DNA of 64,000 nucleotides, taken from NCBI GenBank assembly GCA_900095095.1, contig FMBT01000375.1, positions 1-64,000 on the forward strand. The letters run 5' to 3'. Under the pieces are notes generated by a model. It worked only from the letters and a program-made list of their open reading frames with translations, searched no databases and was not told the DNA's origin. This DNA is from Fragilariopsis cylindrus CCMP1102. Its lineage: Eukaryota; Bacillariophyta; Bacillariophyceae; Bacillariales; Bacillariaceae. The position numbers and the translations under genes are program-made. Shown here one piece after another: positions 11,891 through 63,828 of this stretch (within the stretch, counting starts at the first letter, position 1; each line of letters begins with the position of its first letter).

Positions 11891-14800
11891 ATGTTGTTTA
11901 AAATTGTATCATTATTATTATTATTCCTATTATCGTCGTTGTATAATACTACGTCAGTGTCGTCGTCGTCGGTAGAATCAGACAAAAATTATGTTCATAA
12001 TGATAGAAGTAGTAATGTTGATATAGAAAAAATATTAGATACTATGGATTGGAAGGAACAGATTGGTCAAATGATACAAATTGATATAAATGTATTACTT
12101 ACTACTACTACTGATGATACTACTGATAATGATAATACTACTGCTGATGATACTACTACTCCTGTTACTTTCAATCAAACATTACTAAATTATTATATTG
12201 GTGAATTAGGTATTGGTAGTGTATTAAATAATCATTATAAATGGACATCTGCACAATATAGAACAGAAGTTATTAGATTACAAAATACAGCAAAAACTTA
12301 TTCCCAAAGAAAAAGTTCAAAAATACCAATACCTGTAATATGGGGTTTAGATAGTATCCATGGTAGTAATTATATTGTGGATACGGTATTAACACCCCAA
12401 CCAATTAATATAGCAGCAACTTTTAATGTAACAATAGCGTACCAGGCTGGTAAATTAGCATCGTATGATACCAGAAAATCAGGTATCACATGGTTATTTA
12501 GTCCATTATTAGGTTTAGGTGGTTGGAATCCATTTTGGTCACGTATATATGAAACATTCGGTGAAGATCCTATATTAGTAAGTCTTGTCTTTATATTAAT
12601 TATTATTACTTTATCTTTTACAACGTTCGTTTTTTACATCGCATTGCTTGCTGCTCATCGAGGATATCATGCCGTCCAGTCCAGTCCAGTCCAGTCCAGT
12701 CCAGTCCAGTCCAGTCCAATTCAAACTTTATCTTGTCTTCGATTGGTATCAATTCTACAGTATTCCTCCCAACAAAAATTGCTGGGTTTGTGTACACCGC
12801 ACCACATTTTATGTGGTGGTTCAATATGAAAAAATTTCCTGGAATAGATTTTGTTTTGTTTTGTTTCATCTTGTTTTGAAGATATATTTGTCCATCATTT
12901 TCTTCTGTCGATTTGTCACGGTACCGACAATGGGAGCGTCAACGTCAAAAACCGCCCCATTTGTTTCTGTTTACCTGTTTCTATTTCTGTTTATTCGGTC
13001 GTCCTCCCCACCAATTACTTCCACCACCAACAGAACAATGATATTCTATTTCTCCCATGTGCTTCAATATTGCCGTACTCTACGAACGTCTTATAGTTCT
13101 TTTCTCTCTGCTCTCTCTGCTCTCTGTCTCTTTCATTACGTTTTACGTTTACATTCGGCGTATATTATTATGTAGGTTGGTGATATGGCATTAAGTATGA
13201 TTACTGGTATACAAGAATATGATCCTATCGTAAAAGACGACAAATCAAATCCATTTAAAATGATAACACCATCTAAAGCAGCAGCATGTGGTAAACATTG
13301 GATTGGATATTCATTTCCACATAATGGACATGATCGTAGTCCATCCTATATATCAAAAAGACAATTATATTCCTATTTTATATTACCATGGAAAAAAGTA
13401 TTATCATCTGGTCGTGGTCATGGTCATGGGGATCATAAAAAGTTAATGACAATAATGGAATCATACACATCATTTGATGGTGGTGTACCAAATGTTATAA
13501 ATCGTTATTCATTAGATCATATATTAAGAAACGAAATGAGATTTAATGGTGCTGCTATTACTGACTATAATGAGGTATTAAACACACAAAATTTCCATCA
13601 TATTGTACCTAATATAACAGATGCATATTATAAAGTATTAACAGAGTCTAGTAGTATTGATATGTCAATGATTGGTGCCAATGAATTTGATATTAAATCC
13701 TATTTGAATCAATGTCCAAATTAAAAGATATGAAAAATCGTATGAATAATAACATGTTTAAAGATCGTGTAAGAGAGAGTGTACGTCGTATATTACAACT
13801 AAAAAAAGATTTACATATGTTTGAAGAAAGTTTTGACTTAAAACCATTAGTAGAAGAGGATGATGATGATAATGATGATTATAATAGTCCCTATCTTCGT
13901 GATGGTAATAATGACAATATTAAAATATCTACTAAAGATATACAAACAGTATTAGAAATGACACGTCAATCAATGATATTAACAAAAAATGAGAATAACG
14001 CATTACCATTGTTACAACAAACTATAAAACTAGAAGAACAAGAAGAACAACAGCAACAACCACGAAAATTAAAAGTATTAATAACAGGTCCAACATCCAA
14101 TTCATTAAGTTTTCAATCAGGTGGTTGGACTGGTGAATGGCAGGGTATTGATTCACATAAAGAATCAGATTGGTTTACATACGGAAACACTGTATTAGAA
14201 GCAATGAAGCTGGATGGAGATTTGTTTGATGTTACATATGAATGTGGTGTTGATTATTCAGGTAATGATTGTAATAATAGTGAAAATAATGATAATGATA
14301 ATTCAGCATCATCTTTTACTGACGATGAAGATGAAGACGGACAAGATAATAAGGAACAATATGTACTAAATAAAGTCAAAAAATGGATTCATTGGGGTAG
14401 TAGTAACGACAACAATGGCAATGACAATGACAATGATGACAACTATAATAGTTTTGATGCAATAATTGTCTGTTTAGGTGAAGAAAATTATACCGAAAAA
14501 CCTGGTGATATTACAGATTTAAACCTACCACATGGACAATATTCATTAGTGAAAGCATTAAAGGAAGCTGTCAGAAGTACGACAAAGAAAGATACAAAGA
14601 TTATTCTTATTTACTTTGGTGGTAGGCCAAGATTACTCGATACAATTGTACCAATTGTGGATGCTGTTATAATAGGATTCTTACCAGGACCGTTAGGTGG
14701 AAATGTGATTGCAGATTTTCTAACAGGTCGTATCAATCCAAGTGGAAAATTACCAATCACTTATCCAAAAAATCAAGACTTGTCTGGTTTGCCATACCTG

Positions 14801-15940
14801 CATAGTATATCTGATATGTGTATAGATGATAATGATAGTAATAATAACATACCATGTAAAGTACAATGGCCATTCGGTCATGGATTATCCTATACACAAT
14901 TTACGTATAGTGATATTACATTAAGTACAGAAATATTATACCATCGTTGGCATGATGATGACGACGACGAAGATTTTACTGACACTGATACTGTTAATTC
15001 TGATGATGAGATATTAACCGTAACAGTAACAGTAACAAATAGTGGTATTGTAGGAGGAAGTGAAACTGTTTTATTTTTTACATTTGATGAATTTAGAGAT
15101 ACAACACCAGAATATAAACGACTACGTGGATACCAGAAAATATGGTTAGATCCATATGAATCCAAAACAGTTTCTATACAAATGTCACTAATTGACGACG
15201 ATTTCGAAGATGCTGCAACGGCAGATAATAAAGATTCTTTACGTTTTATTGGTCCACATGATGATACACATTACATCTTACAAAATGGATTACAATTTCG
15301 GGTTGGGATTACCTCTGATGCTGATTGTCGTATGGATCCTATGTCTACTTTATGTGCACCTAATCTTGTTACGATACAAACTGAAAAGGATTATATTGGT
15401 GCATGTGAGGCAGCATGTAAATTATGGAAAACAAGTAAATGTGACAGTGCAATATTTCCATCACCAACAACTGCAAGTTGTAGGAATGCCTGCGTATCAA
15501 TTCATAACAATAATGATGAAAATGGTAGTGGTAATGGATCAAAACAATTAAATAACGATGGATGGGGTTGGACGTATGTTTTATGTTTAGAATCCCTGGT
15601 ATGGAATGATCAATTTGATTCGAATAAGGATTGTTGGAAATTGCGATCATTCTGTCGGGATGTACTGAGTACACCTGGATATGACGAATTTGGGAATGGT
15701 GGAGGAACAACAACGATTGGTAGTAGTAGTAGTAATCGAGGAGGAGGAGGAAGTAACGACACTCCTTCCAAAACATCGTTACCTGTACTTGTTGCACTTA
15801 TTTCTGGTATAATTGCTTCAATTGTGATTAATTGTACAATAAGAAGAAGGAGCGGGGATGGTAGTACCACCACCAAAAGCGCCAAAACCTATGGCGATGT
15901 CCAATTCACTCCTGTCAACGTCAATGAAGTAGTGTGTTAA
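11891..15940 (+). CDS. Glycoside hydrolase family 3 beta-glucosidase, membrane-anchored
   Basis: Likely removes glucose from beta-glucans outside the cell or in the vacuole. An N-terminal signal peptide ('MLFKIVSLLLLFLLSS') precedes the GH3 barrel ('IPVIWGLDSIHGSN'). Exon 1 (11891-12577) splices over a 598-nt intron (12578-13175) to 'VGDMALSMITGIQ', giving the family motif 'GEDPILVGDMA'. Next come 'ACGKHWIGYS' and the nucleophile loop 'AAITDYNEV' (Asp). The C-terminal GH3 domain has the acid/base region 'CLGEENYTEKPGD' and 'GRINPSGKLPITYP'. A fibronectin-III-like domain, a Cys-containing segment, one membrane helix ('LPVLVALISGIIASIV') and a short tail ending 'VNVNEVVC' follow. One base appears to be missing near 13705, where the frame changes inside an otherwise continuous domain. 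I read that as a sequence indel. Total is about 1150 residues. Substrate (chrysolaminarin or wall beta-glucan) is inferred. Confidence 0.9.
12578..13175 (+). other. Long intron of the GH3 gene with a CCAGT tandem repeat
   Basis: The donor is GTAAGT at 12578 and the acceptor is 'tattatgtag' ending at 13175. At about 12674-12718 the pentamer CCAGT is repeated about eight times. The intron is several times longer than the 98-214 nt introns of the neighbouring E(z) gene. It contains chance open frames but nothing recognisable. Confidence 0.85.
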
Positions 15941-16129
15941 CTAATAATATCACAGAAAATTAATTGTGTAGAATAATGATAAATAAATCACCTGTACTAA
16001 GTAAGTGTGTGAGTTCAATACACTGGTATTATAGCTTCCTTTTTCTAATCCCACTACTGTAGCATATATACTTGACTTTATAGGTCAATGTAGTAACATC
16101 ATACTCTTGTTTAAGTGGTATGACGGCTT

Positions 16130-16601
16130 TTATTTTTCTTCTACTTCTTCCAATTCTTCATAGGCGAAGTTGTTGGTATTGACACCTGCGTAATTGACTT
16201 TTTCGAATCTTACAACTATGATTGATATTACAATAATGATAATATTATATGAAAAAAGCAATTCCGTTAATATTGTGTGCAGAACGAGTTTGAGAGGTAA
16301 GAATCAGTCATATACAGTAGAACAGTTGACAAAAAGATACTGTTGCTGCTACCTAGTACTCACCCACTGGGTAACGAACACTACCAGGTTTATCTGCAGC
16401 CGCGACGGATGCAACCTCGTTGTACCAGTAGGATTCTTTGCGTTTGATGCGGACCTTGCTGCCTCGCTTAATATCAAAAAGCTCGGTCGTCGTGTGGTGC
16501 GCCGAAGTGGAGGAAACATGTGCAGGAGCTGGTACAAAGGCTTTACTCCCTTGCAAAGAGCATGTTACTACCAAAAGAAGGAGAAGTGCGAAACGAAACA
16601 T
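16130..16601 (-). CDS. psaE: Photosystem I subunit IV (PsaE), nuclear-encoded with plastid targeting
   Basis: PsaE sits on the stromal side of photosystem I, where it helps ferredoxin docking. Exon 1 (16364-16601) and exon 2 (16130-16215) are joined over a 148-nt GT-AG intron, giving 107 residues. The first 21 or so residues form a signal peptide ('[18 protein letters not shown]'). 'SKAFVPAP' follows, an ASAFAP-like motif in which Phe comes just after the cleavage site, as in diatom plastid preproteins. From about residue 44 the PsaE SH3-like domain is complete: '[20 protein letters not shown]', '[15 protein letters not shown]' and '[17 protein letters not shown]'. The domain is about 64 residues, the usual PsaE size. 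In most diatoms I know of, psaE is in the plastid genome, so a nuclear copy suggests gene transfer. The gene converges with the GH3 gene, about 190 bp apart. Confidence 0.93.
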
Positions 16602-17428
16602 GGTTGCTGATTCTACTGTATATTCAAAAGAACTTTGATATTGATGTGTGATGACATCAGTACAGTAGTACATTGCATAGTAGGGCGGCTCACTGTACTG
16701 CTACGACAGACTAGAGCTGCTTCTTCTCTCTCTTATTCTAGAGCTAATCATGTTGCTTTTGCACGTGTACGTATATTTGGGTAGTGGAGGGGAGCTTTGT
16801 GAGACGATAGCTGCATGTTGTAGTGTGCCGTAAGTGGGTTGTGAGCGTGTCAAAAAGTGGGTAGTCGCGCGTCGTAAGTTTGTCATTGTGCGCGGTGCAC
16901 GTCTGGTGCACGACTAAGGACGATCATTGAAAAATGAGATGACATCATCATACTGTAATATAGTAGGTATTTAGTAGTAGGTTAGTACGGTAAGAAGTAC
17001 AGTACACAGCTAACAATAATATGTTAGACGAGCGAGCGAAGGACAGATCTACTGCTATCTGCCTCGTGAAAAACAAAATCGATCGATGCATGCATACCAG
17101 CCCTTCAATTAATTTTCCCAAGTAAATGTATTTTTTGTGCCGGTCGATGTTTTGATGTTGTTTTTTCGATTATATTATCTTTCCTCCTCGAATCTTATTG
17201 TTATCTGTTACTGTACTTCATCTAACTAACAGACGCACGCACGAGCAACATCAAATCAAATAAAACGACAGACCTCGTCTCTTCAGTACTCCTCTGTCCG
17301 TATTTTCGACGATAGACAAATCTGAGGTAGAATAGTGAAACAAACAGAGAAACAAGATACACGATCTATTAACCGATACAACAGTACAACAAACCGATAC
17401 GATACTGAAACGAAACGATTGATCGATC
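16602..17428. other. Intergenic region between divergent psaE and the rhodanese gene
   Basis: No gene is seen. It should hold the psaE promoter (reading leftward) and the promoter of the rhodanese-RRM gene (reading rightward). A short near-repeat of 'tgcacgt' words lies at about 16896-16911. Confidence 0.5.
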
Positions 17429-54705: not shown

Positions 54706-55401
54706 ATGTTTTCCCAACGATATTATGTCCTACGTTTTGCTACTGCCTGTTGTCTCATACTAGTAGTACATAATAAGTCGACGCACGGCTTCGTACCGGT
54801 AGTACATCACACATCAGATCAATCATCATCTTATCCCACTACTACTAGACTCCTGATGGTATCGACGATGAGTAGTACTAGTATTCCAGAAGTGGTGGGA
54901 ATCTCCGGATGCGATGATACACTGTGGAATAGTATCCCCTATGGTGCACAACGAGATTTAGAACGATTTTGTCGATTGGCAACGGACGAAAGTTATGAAT
55001 TTGTACAGACGAAAGAATTTCCTATTTCACCCTTGGAATTAGCAAAGAATCGAGTTGACACAATGAAAGATATTAATCGCTTTGTCGTTAAAAAGAACAA
55101 GAAGAAGAAGAATGAGAACGATGATGCTGATGATGCTGATGATGCTTCTCCTTTTGTTCCACCTTTTGAAGATTTGGCATGGAATAATGGTGTCAAGTCG
55201 TGGGAATTAAATAATCTAGCAGAAAAAGAAATGGCACTAGCAAAAGTAAAAGCCGACAAGAAAGCGGCTATCAAATTAATGAGAGAAGAAGAAGAAGCTG
55301 CAAAGGTTGAGGCTGCTGCAAAATTGGCAGAAGAGGTAGAAGCAGAAGCAGAGATGGCTGATGGTATGGAGAATGACGATGATGATGGTGCATTCCAGTA
55401 A
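54706..55401 (+). CDS. Plastid-type coiled-coil protein of unknown function
   Basis: Single exon, 231 residues. Residues 1-27 look like a signal peptide ('RFATACCLILVVHNKS'). 'THGFVPVV' follows, with Phe right after the likely cleavage site, the diatom plastid transit pattern. The middle carries 'LWNSIPYGAQRDLERFCRLA' and 'LELAKNRVDTMKDINRFVV', for which I know no family. The last 80 residues are an Ala/Glu/Lys heptad-like helix ('ALAKVKADKKAAIKLMREEE') ending in an acidic tail. Its upstream region shares conserved blocks with that of the next gene, also plastid-directed. Confidence 0.75.
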   Translation: MFSQRYYVLRFATACCLILVVHNKSTHGFVPVVHHTSDQSSSYPTTTRLLMVSTMSSTSIPEVVGISGCDDTLWNSIPYGAQRDLERFCRLATDESYEFVQTKEFPISPLELAKNRVDTMKDINRFVVKKNKKKKNENDDADDADDASPFVPPFEDLAWNNGVKSWELNNLAEKEMALAKVKADKKAAIKLMREEEEAAKVEAAAKLAEEVEAEAEMADGMENDDDDGAFQ

Positions 55402-59274: not shown

Positions 59275-62200
59275 CTAGGGACAAAAACTTGCGGCTTCTG
59301 CGGGCGTATCTTCTTGAATGATGTTGTCGCATTCTTCACTGCAGGAATCTTCCGTCAGGCACGCACCGGCTGCAAAAGCCATAGAAGAACACTTGCAAGA
59401 GTTTTTGCCGGTGCAACTACCGGCTGCAGGGGAGAAAGTAGATTTGGTTCCCCAACATGAACCCTCACCAGTACAAGAACCAGCACCGATGACACCACCA
59501 GCCTTGTAGCAGGAACCCTCGCCAGTACAAGAACCAGCAGCGATGCCACCAGTAGCCCTGTAGCAGGCTCCTTTCTTGGTGCAAGAATCGGCGCCGATGG
59601 AACCTTCAATCACTCCAACACAGGCATCCTCGCCAAGACACGAACGAGTCCCAACCAAGATGGCTAAACAATGGCAATTTGTGCCTGGACCAACGCAACT
59701 TATGGCGCCAATACTAGCAGTAGTTCCAAGGTTTCTACAGGGGTCAGCACCATTGCACGCACCGGCTCCGATCGTGCCTGCCGACTCTCCACAGGGTGAG
59801 TTGCCAGAAAATAGGCCAACACAACTACCGGCCCCTATGGTTGCAACAGCACCAATACAAGCGTTTTCACCAAGGCAAGCATCTGCGCCAATAGCGGCAG
59901 CGGCAGCAGTTTGGCAGGCGTTTTCACCAAGACAAGAATTTGCGCCGATTGAAGCAGAAGGCATATGTTGGCAGGCGTTTTCACCAACACAGGCGTCGGC
60001 CCCAATGAGGCCATTCGAGAAGTCACAGGCATTCACACCAGTGCAACTATTTGCGCCAATAGTTGCAGTAGAGCAGAAGCAGGAATCATCTACTCCACAG
60101 GCACTGACACCAATAGTAGGAAGTCCGACACTATTGCATTCTAGAACATCAGCCTTATCAGCCTTGACTTCACTAGGTGGTCCACTCAGCGCTGAGCTTG
60201 GTGATGATGAAGGCTTGCTGCTTGGTGAATCGGAAGGACTTCTAGATGGATACAAACTAGGTGAGGAACTCGGACCTCCACTTGGTGACGAACTTGGTGT
60301 TAAAGTCGGGCTAGAGGACGGTGAGGTAGTTGGAGTTGCGGTGGGAGTTGCAGAAGGCGAGGAAGTTGGACTCGTACTAGGTTTGGTACTGTCAGTAGGA
60401 GACTCGGATGGTGCAGAACTTGGGAAGTAACTTCCACTAGGAGCAGCTGATGGTTCTCCACATTCGACACTGACAGTTTCACAGGGAATTTCTACTCCGT
60501 ATGCACAGAATTTGTAGTCACCACCCATTTCGGACAAATTATCAACATTACAGGCATCACATTGATCTGCTTCGAATTCTGCATCCATATACACGACGAC
60601 AGTTACACTAGCAAATCCTTCAATACATTCACCTTTAACATCTTCAGAATCTCCAAAAATGACATTGCTCTTAATGATACAAGAATCCATACCGGCTTCG
60701 ATGGCAAGGCCTGCTTCTTCTGGTATCCAATTTTGGGTAACAGTGAAGTCAACCGTATTGTTGGCAAAGTTTTGGTTGTTGATTACGATAGCATTTGCGG
60801 GCATTGGGATAGTTTCCATTTCATCTCCACCGGTTGTCATACAAACAGACTCGATAATCTTGGGCTCTGCAGGCATGTAACAATCGGTAGGCATCATAGA
60901 CTGAGTTGGGTTGTTGGTAGGAGATTCAGAAGGAGAGGCACTTGGGCTGCTACTGGGTCCCCTACTTGGCAAGGAGCTCGGCAAAGTGGATGGAGATCCG
61001 CTAGGACTTGCACTAGGACCAGAAGTTGGACTAGATGAGGGTGCAGAGCTGGGAGAGCTCGTTGGACCACCAGATGGTGCCGCACTTGGACTAGAGGTCG
61101 GACCACCAGTTGGTGCAGCAGTAGGCAAATCACTTGGAGAAGCGCTGGGCGACAATGTAGGTTTGCTGCTTGGTGATTCAGAGGGATTGGCCGTTGGGCC
61201 TCCCGTTGGACTGGTAGACGGACTAGCACTGGGACTTGCAGATGGCGCTGGACTCTTTGTTGGGCTATCAGATGGAGCAGAACTAGGGAAATACGATCCG
61301 CTAGGGGCTTCACTAGGTGATCCACTTGGCGCTGAGCTTGGTGATGATGAAGGCTTGCTGCTTGGTGATACAGAAGGACTGCTAGATGGCAACAAGCTAG
61401 GTGAGGAACTCGGACCTCCGCTTGGACTTGCTGAAGGCACGTAACTTGGACCTCCACTTGGACCTGCAGAAGGTGAAGCACTTGGAGATCCGCTTGGAGA
61501 TCCAGACAGTGAGGAACTAGGTCCACCACTTGGTACACCACTTGGTACACCACTAGGAGCAGAACTTGGAACAGAACTTGGTGATGCGCTTGGACTCGAA
61601 CTAGGAGAGGAACTTGGAATCGAAGTTGGAACTGTACTTGGTGACTCACTTGGACTAGAACTAGGTGAGGCACTTGGAGCATGACTATTTGTAGGCGTAT
61701 TACTTGGAGCTGAACTAGGGAAATAGGATCCACTAGGAGCTTCACTAGGTGATTCACTCGGCGCTGAGCTTGGTGATGATGAAGGCTTGCTACTTGGTGA
61801 TACAGAAGGACTGCTAGATGGCAACAAGCTAGGTGAGGAACTCGGACCTCTGCTTGGACTTGCTGAAGGCACGTAACTTGGACCTCCACTTGGACTTGCT
61901 GAAGGCATGTAACTTGGACCTCCACTTGGACTTGCAGAAGGTGAAGCACTTGGAGATCCACTTGGAGGTACAGAAGGTGAGGAACTTGGTCCGCCACTTG
62001 GTACACCACTTGGTACACCACTGGGAGCAGAACTTGGTACACCACTTGGTACACCACTAGGAGCAGAACTTGGAACAGAACTTGGAACAGAACTAGGTGA
62101 TGCGCTTGGACTCGAACTAGGAGAGGAACTTCGAATCAAAGTTGGAACTGTACTTGGTGACTCACTTGGACTAGCACTAGGTGAGGCACTTGGAGAATGA

Positions 62201-63828
62201 CTATTTGTAGGTGTATTACTTGGAGCTGAACTAGGAAAATATGATCCGCTAGGGGCTTCACTAGGTGATTCACTCGGCGCTGGGCTTGGTGATGATGAAG
62301 GCTTGCTGCTTGGTGATACAGAAGGACTGCTAGATGGCAACAAGCTAGGCATGTAACTCGGACCTCTACTTGGACTTGCTGAGGGCATGTAACTTGGACC
62401 TCCACTTGGACTTGCAGAAGGTGAAGCACTTGGTGATCCGCTTGGAGATCCAGAAGGTGAGGAACTGGGTCCACCACTTGGTACACCACTAGGAGCAGAA
62501 ATAGGTTCAACAGATGGGAATGTAGTGGGATAGAATGTAGGATACATTGTTGGAGGACCTGATGGAGATGCGGTTGGATTGGTGCTAGGAGCAGAGCTTG
62601 GACTCCAACTTTTTCTGATAGTTGGACTAAAAGTTGGACCTGTACTTGGCATGGCGCTTGGAACAGAAGTTGGTGATGCACTTGGACTCGAACTAGGAGA
62701 GGAACTTGGAATAGAAGTTGGAGCTGTACTTGGTGACTCACTTGAACTAGCACTAGGTGAGGCACTTGGAGCATGACTATTTGTAGGTGTATTACTTGGA
62801 GCTGAACTAGGAAAATATGATCCGCTAGGGGCTTCACTAGGTGATTCACTCGGCGCTGGGCTTGGTGATGATGAAGGCTTGCTGCTTGGTGATACAGAAG
62901 GACTGCGAGATGGCGACAAACTAGGCATGTAACTCGGACCTTTACTTGGTGATCCACTCGGCGCTGAGCTTGGTGATGATGAAGGCTTGCTGCTCGGTGA
63001 TACAGAAGGACTGCTAGATGGCGACAAACTAGGCATGTAACTCGGACCTCCACTTGGACTTGCTGAAGGCATGTAACTTGCGCTAGGACTACAACTAGGA
63101 GAGGAACTTGGAGAAGAACTATTCGTAGTTGGCACAAAAAGCTCAATAAGTCTATCAGTAGGACTATGTGATGGCGTAGGAGTATTGCTTGGAGTGCCGC
63201 TTGGAGCTACACACGTACATTTGATCTCGAAGGTGTATTTGATTATTCCGTATCCTTGGGCGGAGTAATCTTCGTAAGGTGGTTTGGAACACTTGTCAAT
63301 TTGAACTTCACCACCACTTGAAATTTCCTGTACCACAGAATCAGTATTGGATGCGAAATATATATCAACAATCGCAAAAGATTGAACGCCATCATATTCG
63401 AAGCAACCAGCTTCAATTTCAGGTGCATCGAGTTTGCATCCGGCAGTGAGTGGCATAGATACATAGTTAGGATCCAAAGCGTACTTGCCAACCTTTTTCA
63501 TGTGTTTTATGTAGATATCTGTATGATTCGCAAAAGGATTATCTACCTTGAACTTGACAGTGTGAGCAGCATTGATAACATTTGGTTGTTCAAAGATGAT
63601 ACCATAAAGAATGGGTTCACCCTCTGGTGGAGATTCTCCCGATTGCTTAATCATTTTCACAACACCATGTGGGTTGGCTGGACAGGCGGATTCATTCGTT
63701 AATGTCTTGTAGGTTTCGTTGCAAGAGGTAGTAAAACGTTGTTGGTGGTGTTTCGTTGCCGATAACCTCGCGGTAATGACAATGGGCGCAACAAGCAACA
63801 AGCTGCCGAACGCAAAAGAAATCCTCAT
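59275..63828 (-). CDS. Large secreted PSxxPS repeat protein with paired Cys domains and C-terminal IGAxSC repeats
   Basis: Single exon, 1517 residues, probably extracellular. It starts with a signal peptide ('MRISFAFGSLLLVAPIVITA'). Domain A (about 33-205) has six or more Cys and beta-strand-like motifs ('VKFKVDNPF', 'GCFEYDGVQSFAIVDIYF'). PSxxPS tracts run from about 206 to 977. Domain B (about 978-1129; 'NTVDFTVTQNW', 'CIEGFASVTVVVYMD', 'DYKFCAYGVEIPC') looks like a diverged copy of domain A. A short PSxxPS tract follows, then about 14 units of 18-19 residues with consensus [IV]-G-A-x-[SA]-C-x-G-x-x-[AS]-C, such as 'IGANSCLGENAC' (about 1233-1510). These units probably stack as a disulphide-rich solenoid. 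The PSxxPS part shows higher-order units beginning 'GSYFPSSAPS'. No membrane anchor. A role in wall, frustule or adhesion is inferred. Confidence 0.88.
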   Translation of the reverse strand: MRISFAFGSLLLVAPIVITARLSATKHHQQRFTTSCNETYKTLTNESACPANPHGVVKMIKQSGESPPEGEPILYGIIFEQPNVINAAHTVKFKVDNPFANHTDIYIKHMKKVGKYALDPNYVSMPLTAGCKLDAPEIEAGCFEYDGVQSFAIVDIYFASNTDSVVQEISSGGEVQIDKCSKPPYEDYSAQGYGIIKYTFEIKCTCVAPSGTPSNTPTPSHSPTDRLIELFVPTTNSSSPSSSPSCSPSASYMPSASPSGGPSYMPSLSPSSSPSVSPSSKPSSSPSSAPSGSPSKGPSYMPSLSPSRSPSVSPSSKPSSSPSPAPSESPSEAPSGSYFPSSAPSNTPTNSHAPSASPSASSSESPSTAPTSIPSSSPSSSPSASPTSVPSAMPSTGPTFSPTIRKSWSPSSAPSTNPTASPSGPPTMYPTFYPTTFPSVEPISAPSGVPSGGPSSSPSGSPSGSPSASPSASPSGGPSYMPSASPSRGPSYMPSLLPSSSPSVSPSSKPSSSPSPAPSESPSEAPSGSYFPSSAPSNTPTNSHSPSASPSASPSESPSTVPTLIRSSSPSSSPSASPSSVPSSVPSSAPSGVPSGVPSSAPSGVPSGVPSGGPSSSPSVPPSGSPSASPSASPSGGPSYMPSASPSGGPSYVPSASPSRGPSSSPSLLPSSSPSVSPSSKPSSSPSSAPSESPSEAPSGSYFPSSAPSNTPTNSHAPSASPSSSPSESPSTVPTSIPSSSPSSSPSASPSSVPSSAPSGVPSGVPSGGPSSSLSGSPSGSPSASPSAGPSGGPSYVPSASPSGGPSSSPSLLPSSSPSVSPSSKPSSSPSSAPSGSPSEAPSGSYFPSSAPSDSPTKSPAPSASPSASPSTSPTGGPTANPSESPSSKPTLSPSASPSDLPTAAPTGGPTSSPSAAPSGGPTSSPSSAPSSSPTSGPSASPSGSPSTLPSSLPSRGPSSSPSASPSESPTNNPTQSMMPTDCYMPAEPKIIESVCMTTGGDEMETIPMPANAIVINNQNFANNTVDFTVTQNWIPEEAGLAIEAGMDSCIIKSNVIFGDSEDVKGECIEGFASVTVVVYMDAEFEADQCDACNVDNLSEMGGDYKFCAYGVEIPCETVSVECGEPSAAPSGSYFPSSAPSESPTDSTKPSTSPTSSPSATPTATPTTSPSSSPTLTPSSSPSGGPSSSPSLYPSRSPSDSPSSKPSSSPSSALSGPPSEVKADKADVLECNSVGLPTIGVSACGVDDSCFCSTATIGANSCTGVNACDFSNGLIGADACVGENACQHMPSASIGANSCLGENACQTAAAAAIGADACLGENACIGAVATIGAGSCVGLFSGNSPCGESAGTIGAGACNGADPCRNLGTTASIGAISCVGPGTNCHCLAILVGTRSCLGEDACVGVIEGSIGADSCTKKGACYRATGGIAAGSCTGEGSCYKAGGVIGAGSCTGEGSCWGTKSTFSPAAGSCTGKNSCKCSSMAFAAGACLTEDSCSEECDNIIQEDTPAEAASFCP
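60180..63200 (-). repeat. Higher-order PSxxPS coding repeat
   Basis: Five 'GSYFPSSAPS' units start near (plus coordinates) 62815, 62236, 61720, 61287 and 60424. The first four are 579, 516 and 433 nt apart, so unit length shrinks toward the 3' end of the gene. Between them 'GGPSYMPSASPS' and 'PSSSPSVSPSSKPSSSPS' blocks recur in the same order. This is the pattern of unequal recombination within the gene. Confidence 0.85.

Follow-up and report, generated by a model that had tools for sequence, protein, structure and literature searches.

The stretch of Fragilariopsis cylindrus CCMP1102 DNA analysed here (64,000 nucleotides, hereafter the window) carries on its minus strand a gene encoding the photosystem I subunit PsaE; its coding span is exactly 16130-16601 and its product is 107 aa long. 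In most diatoms psaE is plastid-encoded. Exon 1 (16601..16364, 238 nt) contains the start codon, a presumed signal peptide, a putative transit peptide and ∼36 residues from the start of the PsaE domain, and exon 2 (16215..16130, 86 nt including the stop) contains the remainder of the domain, matched at 16142-16219, and an acidic C-terminus. Between them, within the domain and in phase 1, lies a predicted spliceosomal-type intron of 148 nt (16363..16216; GTGAGT...TAG) with GT-AG ends (GTGAGTACTA...CAATCATAG). Among the donor/acceptor pairs listed, the 148-nt pair restores the PsaE consensus; one alternative pair, with an intron of 151 nt, likewise leaves an open frame up to the end but gives PVGEFEKV. 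The spliced product matches the Pfam PSI_PsaE profile over its whole length (positions 1-60 of 60; E 3.8e-31; 107 bits against a curated cut-off of 27), by which we assign it to PsaE. It also matches 87 distinct PDB sequences at E <=0.001, and the best 60 of these 87 carry the name PsaE or photosystem I subunit IV/E, bar a few “putative uncharacterized protein” chains. The initial annotation, made from the sequence alone, had proposed a complete PsaE domain interrupted by a 148-nt intron, and both the gene model and the domain score bear this out, with splicing as a prediction.

The N-terminus opens with what looks like a signal peptide (16539..16601, minus strand, codons 1-21), with a hydrophobic core of mean Kyte-Doolittle value 3.65 over 8 residues and a presumed cleavage before F22. 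A putative transit peptide follows (16476..16538, minus strand, codons 22-42), assigned from its position and by comparison with N-termini encoded at the light-harvesting loci of this genome. Both psaE copies found in the genome (the second is described below) start with a hydrophobic stretch, then GSKA-FVP, then a short S/T/H-rich stretch leading to TTTELF. The ASAFAP-like motif initially reported here therefore holds as to the hydrophobic leader and the F-led site but not as to the exact motif, which is GSKA-FVP rather than a canonical ASAFAP; relative to the AXAFXP motif quoted in PMC4169464, S replaces the first A. As a positive control for leaders, we fetched 30 of the 104 matches to light-harvesting loci in the F. 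cylindrus genome. Of the 30, 12 combined a hydrophobic leader and an (S/T/A)AFAP site, some of them in short ORFs (63-105 aa) that may be first exons, and the other 18 had no such leader under the pattern. The psaE site, with K at −2, would fail this stricter light-harvesting pattern and passes a relaxed one; the latter also accepts 7 of the window's 99 first-Met ORFs and 453 of 20000 shuffled versions of the psaE N-terminus. The relaxed motif by itself would thus seem weak evidence, and we count it only together with the PsaE domain and the selection result described below. Under the relaxed test the presequence is bipartite, a signal peptide being followed by an F-led transit peptide of the AXAFXP type, and import is predicted. 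Elsewhere in the window (54706-55401, plus strand), a 231-aa ORF without a Pfam match has an N-terminus resembling a plastid leader (STHG-FVPVVHH) and is a candidate unknown plastid protein.

On the downstream side, the C-terminal part of a glycosyl hydrolase family 3 (GH3) gene (13712..15940, plus strand) converges on psaE, and GH3 also adjoins the second copy. The intergenic region on the other side (16602..17428), which separates psaE from a divergent lysine-rich ORF (plus strand, from 17429) and can be aligned with the second copy, is presumably the promoter side of psaE. Within it, two blocks (16822-16906 and 16928-17011) appear by eye to be near-identical in both copies amid indel-rich upstream sequence and are possibly regulatory. 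Five of the six neighbouring ORFs scanned match Pfam families ordinary in nuclear genomes; these neighbours and GH3, along with a GT-AG intron (predicted to be spliced) in both copies, mark psaE as a nuclear gene. A bacterial-type promoter scan of 16000-17000 returned 6 matches against a shuffle mean of 2.3 and was set aside because the model is bacterial, and a terminator scan of the same interval, also with a bacterial model, found none. In the most G+C-rich part of the window lies a 1517-aa ORF (59275-63828, minus strand) with a signal-like start, SPS-rich repeats and cysteine-rich stretches, by its look perhaps a cell-wall or surface protein.

The second psaE copy lies on a contig of 12,044 bases (C815; locus L005, 4660-5121, minus strand) and encodes a product of 103 aa, with an intron of 150 nt at the same position as that of the window gene. 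C815 shares with the window a syntenic block that includes the GH3 gene, with 91% identity over its main piece of 5,978 columns, and we infer that it is most likely the other haplotype. Diverged haplotypes are described as a known mark of the F. cylindrus genome (PMC5634323).

Searches of the F. cylindrus assembly (67,884,144 bases in 818 contigs, the window belonging to contig C350) gave four psaE matches, which correspond to the exons of the two nuclear copies. Searches for psaA/psaB and psaD gave no match in this assembly, and the same searches do match in a cyanobacterial control genome. Because psaA/psaB and psaD, which are present in all diatoms of 120 plastomes (PMC12412971), are without a match, plastid DNA must be largely or wholly missing from the assembly. 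Since psaE and psaI do match, the psaE locus is nuclear and not a plastid contaminant. By the same token, we rejected reading the missing plastid psaE as a loss, psaA/psaB and psaD being missing too.

The companion gene, nuclear psaI, is found on two contigs (C187 and C651; loci L006 and L007, 1213-1602 on the plus strand in each), where a 129-aa frame encodes an identical protein. This protein has a signal-peptide-like start, AYG-FAP, a second hydrophobic stretch that resembles a thylakoid-transfer domain, and a C-terminal PsaI domain. It matches PDB chains 8xls, 6l4u and 8zeh best, and we take these to be diatom photosystem I. Nuclear rpl27 was considered as a further transferred gene; the one L27 match in the assembly was of no clear plastid type. 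The genome also yields 53 matches to the ice-binding domain, of which some lie in a single long frame and others are interrupted by in-frame stops, and one ice-binding protein is identical over 255/255 residues to PDB chain 6a8k, presumably F. cylindrus fcIBP11. Both fcIBP11 and the structure of an F. cylindrus ice-binding protein, its entry code not given, are ascribed to this species in a review (PMC10992025).

The locus had at first been taken for a finished plastid-to-nucleus transfer. The nuclear, intron-bearing and plastid-addressed PsaE that this implies is present, but the assembly, lacking plastid DNA, is uninformative on plastid psaE and hence on completion. The accompanying statement that plastid psaE has been lost in a few diatoms agrees with passages of PMC4169464, PMC9044688, PMC9408514 and PMC12412971. 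The likeliest alternative refines the preferred reading of a working nuclear gene rather than contradicting it: nuclear psaE would be functional alongside a psaE retained in the plastid of F. cylindrus, the transfer still being under way and the copies either sharing the work or the plastid copy decaying. According to PMC9408514, plastid psaE is missing from Rhizosolenia, from Pseudo-nitzschia other than P. americana and, if the wording is taken in its likelier sense, from F. kerguelensis, whereas plastid psaI is missing from all Fragilariopsis, so the F. cylindrus plastid may still carry psaE. The retention of plastid psaE by P. americana, alongside congeners that are without it, would fit an old nuclear copy followed by later, separate plastid losses. 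However, the sentence on psaE loss in PMC9408514 is ambiguous, and annotation errors or gaps are reported for every published organellar genome analysed by PMC12412971. We thus regard residence in both compartments as a genuine possibility, albeit one with the balance tilted against it.

As to the origin of the gene, a PsaE tree of 61 columns was built from 25 rows (the window sequence, 11 PDB sequences and 13 of 80 cyanobacterial loci, and thus without diatom plastid PsaE rows). The printed PDB rows 7qco and 9eys and the duplicate 7y7a were left out, and the organism names of the PDB rows are as we presume them to be. Stars were given to 2 of the 22 inner branches. In these 61 columns, the window PsaE falls among cyanobacterial rows with unstarred supports (82/82, 85/75 and 84/80) and not beside the red-type plastids. 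Constraining it to group with four land-plant-type rows (AU p 0.113) or with three red-type plastid rows (AU p 0.082) was rejected in neither case over the 61 columns, so the domain phylogeny that the initial annotation had looked to, with a green-lineage position as the contrary outcome, decides against neither the land-plant clade nor the red-type one. Among these rows, the highest identity to the window PsaE is that of the cyanobacterium Roseofilum (47/61); Porphyridium has 44/59 and the four land-plant-type sequences 36-37/59. We consider it most likely that nuclear psaE arose by endosymbiotic gene transfer from the plastid of the diatom itself, as psaI did, a preference owed to the lineage, the companion psaI and the published plastid losses in relatives, and not to the tree.

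Horizontal transfer of psaE from a cyanobacterium or another alga (e.g., a green one), instead of from the diatom plastid, would accord with Roseofilum as the source of the top identity. It would also accord with one extra residue in the DKPGSV loop, whereas the diatom chains (8zeh, 8xls, 6l4u) match a red-type profile over ranges of equal length (1-61). However, 61 conserved columns are too few to resolve such an origin, and an extra residue in this loop is also present in two cyanobacterial chains (6pnj, 7f4v) and may have arisen locally once the gene had been transferred. In addition, psaI moved too and looks diatom-like, and plastid psaE loss has been published for close relatives. We judge a horizontal origin to be unlikely. 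Searches for psaE relatives in viral contigs found none among 23 pattern-matching stretches. Caution is needed with PDB chain 6ly5_e, labelled PsaE in an entry that we take to be Chaetoceros photosystem I, because it prints a land-plant-type sequence, perhaps a placeholder; this made it unusable as a diatom PsaE reference.

The two copies also allow the state of the gene to be judged. Across the 72 codons that start at TTTELF and include the stop, the window and C815 copies align without an indel and are separated by 3 synonymous changes and 0 nonsynonymous ones. In contrast, mismatches and gapped positions number 9 and 26 in the 162 columns of the intron, 9 and 76 in the 339 columns of the upstream flank (301 nt), and 11 and 10 in the 195 columns of the downstream flank (190 nt). 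At the pooled mismatch rate of the intron and flanks (0.050, with sites treated as independent and a single pair of copies), 8.3 nonsynonymous changes would be expected in the 72 codons versus the 0 observed (P = 2e-4), and 2.3 synonymous changes versus the 3 observed. Because no amino acid has changed over this stretch while the intron and flanks diverge, psaE is under selection; retention of the nuclear gene by selection, as would be looked for in a completed transfer, is thus seen in this one pair of copies. In the leader there are 7 mismatches, and gaps totalling 12 nt that keep the frame, whereas the domain is unchanged as protein, so the leader evolves faster than mature PsaE. It is accordingly very improbable that nuclear psaE is a silent or decaying transferred copy, that is, nuclear plastid DNA with a chance leader, when 72 codons show neither amino acid change nor indel amid surroundings that differ by ∼9%, and when frame, intron and leader are intact in both copies. 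An assembly artefact or a contaminant from another alga is scarcely credible, given flanks and a GH3 gene common to both copies, a psaE contig of 207 kb, and ordinary nuclear Pfam families at 5 of the 6 neighbouring ORFs scanned.

With its gene structure, its domain, the form of its presequence, its two copies under selection and its companion nuclear psaI, the locus is best explained as a working nuclear gene for photosystem I PsaE, and we are confident in this explanation, under which the transcript would be spliced, the product imported and the donor the diatom's own plastid. The mRNA would be spliced at the 148-nt intron, and the precursor would enter the ER-derived outer plastid membrane by means of its signal peptide, to be cut before F22. 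The F-led transit peptide would then take PsaE across the inner plastid membranes and be trimmed near position 42, leaving a mature SH3-like protein of ∼65 residues that would lie next to PsaC and PsaD on the stromal side of photosystem I and aid the docking of ferredoxin or flavodoxin. PsaE itself is not known to bind iron.

PsaE protein has been detected in F. cylindrus by mass spectrometry, being up under low iron and low manganese, with ferredoxin and cytochrome c6 down under low iron (PMC13106929). The rise is notable because photosystem I is iron-rich, and a similar transcript response in F. kerguelensis is cited in the same paper. The proteomics database used there holds nuclear and plastid proteins together, and the portions of the paper available to us do not state the source gene of the PsaE peptides. 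In P. granii, PSAE is reported to be higher when iron-replete, the opposite direction (review PMC7966952). If the low-iron PsaE does come from nuclear psaE, nuclear residence could allow PsaE to go its own way. We therefore offer, as a speculation that we would ourselves bet against, that transfer of psaE in Fragilariopsis/Pseudo-nitzschia freed PsaE from plastid co-regulation and brought it under nuclear iron-stress control. An iron-free docking subunit could thereby go up as ferredoxin goes down, perhaps favouring flavodoxin docking or limiting oxygen radicals, and a plastid copy may coexist in F. cylindrus. This link to iron is the interesting part of the case, and the two psaE copies, probably alleles in a diploid model, provide a concrete gene for asking why PsaE rises at low iron.

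Nuclear psaE is familiar from land plants and green algae, where PsaE is imported with a simple transit peptide. The F. cylindrus gene resembles land-plant-type psaE in being nuclear but belongs to a different lineage, its product being 36-37/59 identical to the four land-plant-type sequences. Much closer in kind are three species of the diatom Thalassionema, whose plastid genomes lack petF, psaE and psaI, all three genes being nuclear instead; the petF products carry signal peptides there, with “similar results” given for psaE and psaI (PMC9044688). However, Thalassionema is another diatom lineage, no intron is mentioned in the available text of PMC9044688, and the two nuclear psaE genes probably derive from separate transfers. 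Nuclear petF of Thalassiosira oceanica (PMC4169464, PMC7966952) is likewise a photosystem I partner gene that moved from plastid to nucleus, with an iron-related rationale; unlike PsaE, its product is the iron protein ferredoxin, and at low iron F. cylindrus PsaE rises while ferredoxin falls (PMC13106929).

Within the literature bearing on psaE that was available to us, which also includes PMC10307964, we found no description of the nuclear psaE of F. cylindrus. PMC5643376 classed genes of Fragilariopsis as nuclear, plastid or absent, and the nuclear state of this psaE may already be in print in a figure of that paper; the annotation of the earlier F. cylindrus reference genome may also include the gene. 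Nuclear psaE in diatoms is in any event already reported, and F. cylindrus is a well-supported further case rather than a new kind of event. For the host genus and the related Pseudo-nitzschia, PMC9408514 describes the plastid side and, in the portions available, no nuclear gene, leaving the mechanism that compensates for the lost plastid genes to future study. The nuclear, plastid-addressed psaE and psaI of F. cylindrus are a direct candidate answer to that question.
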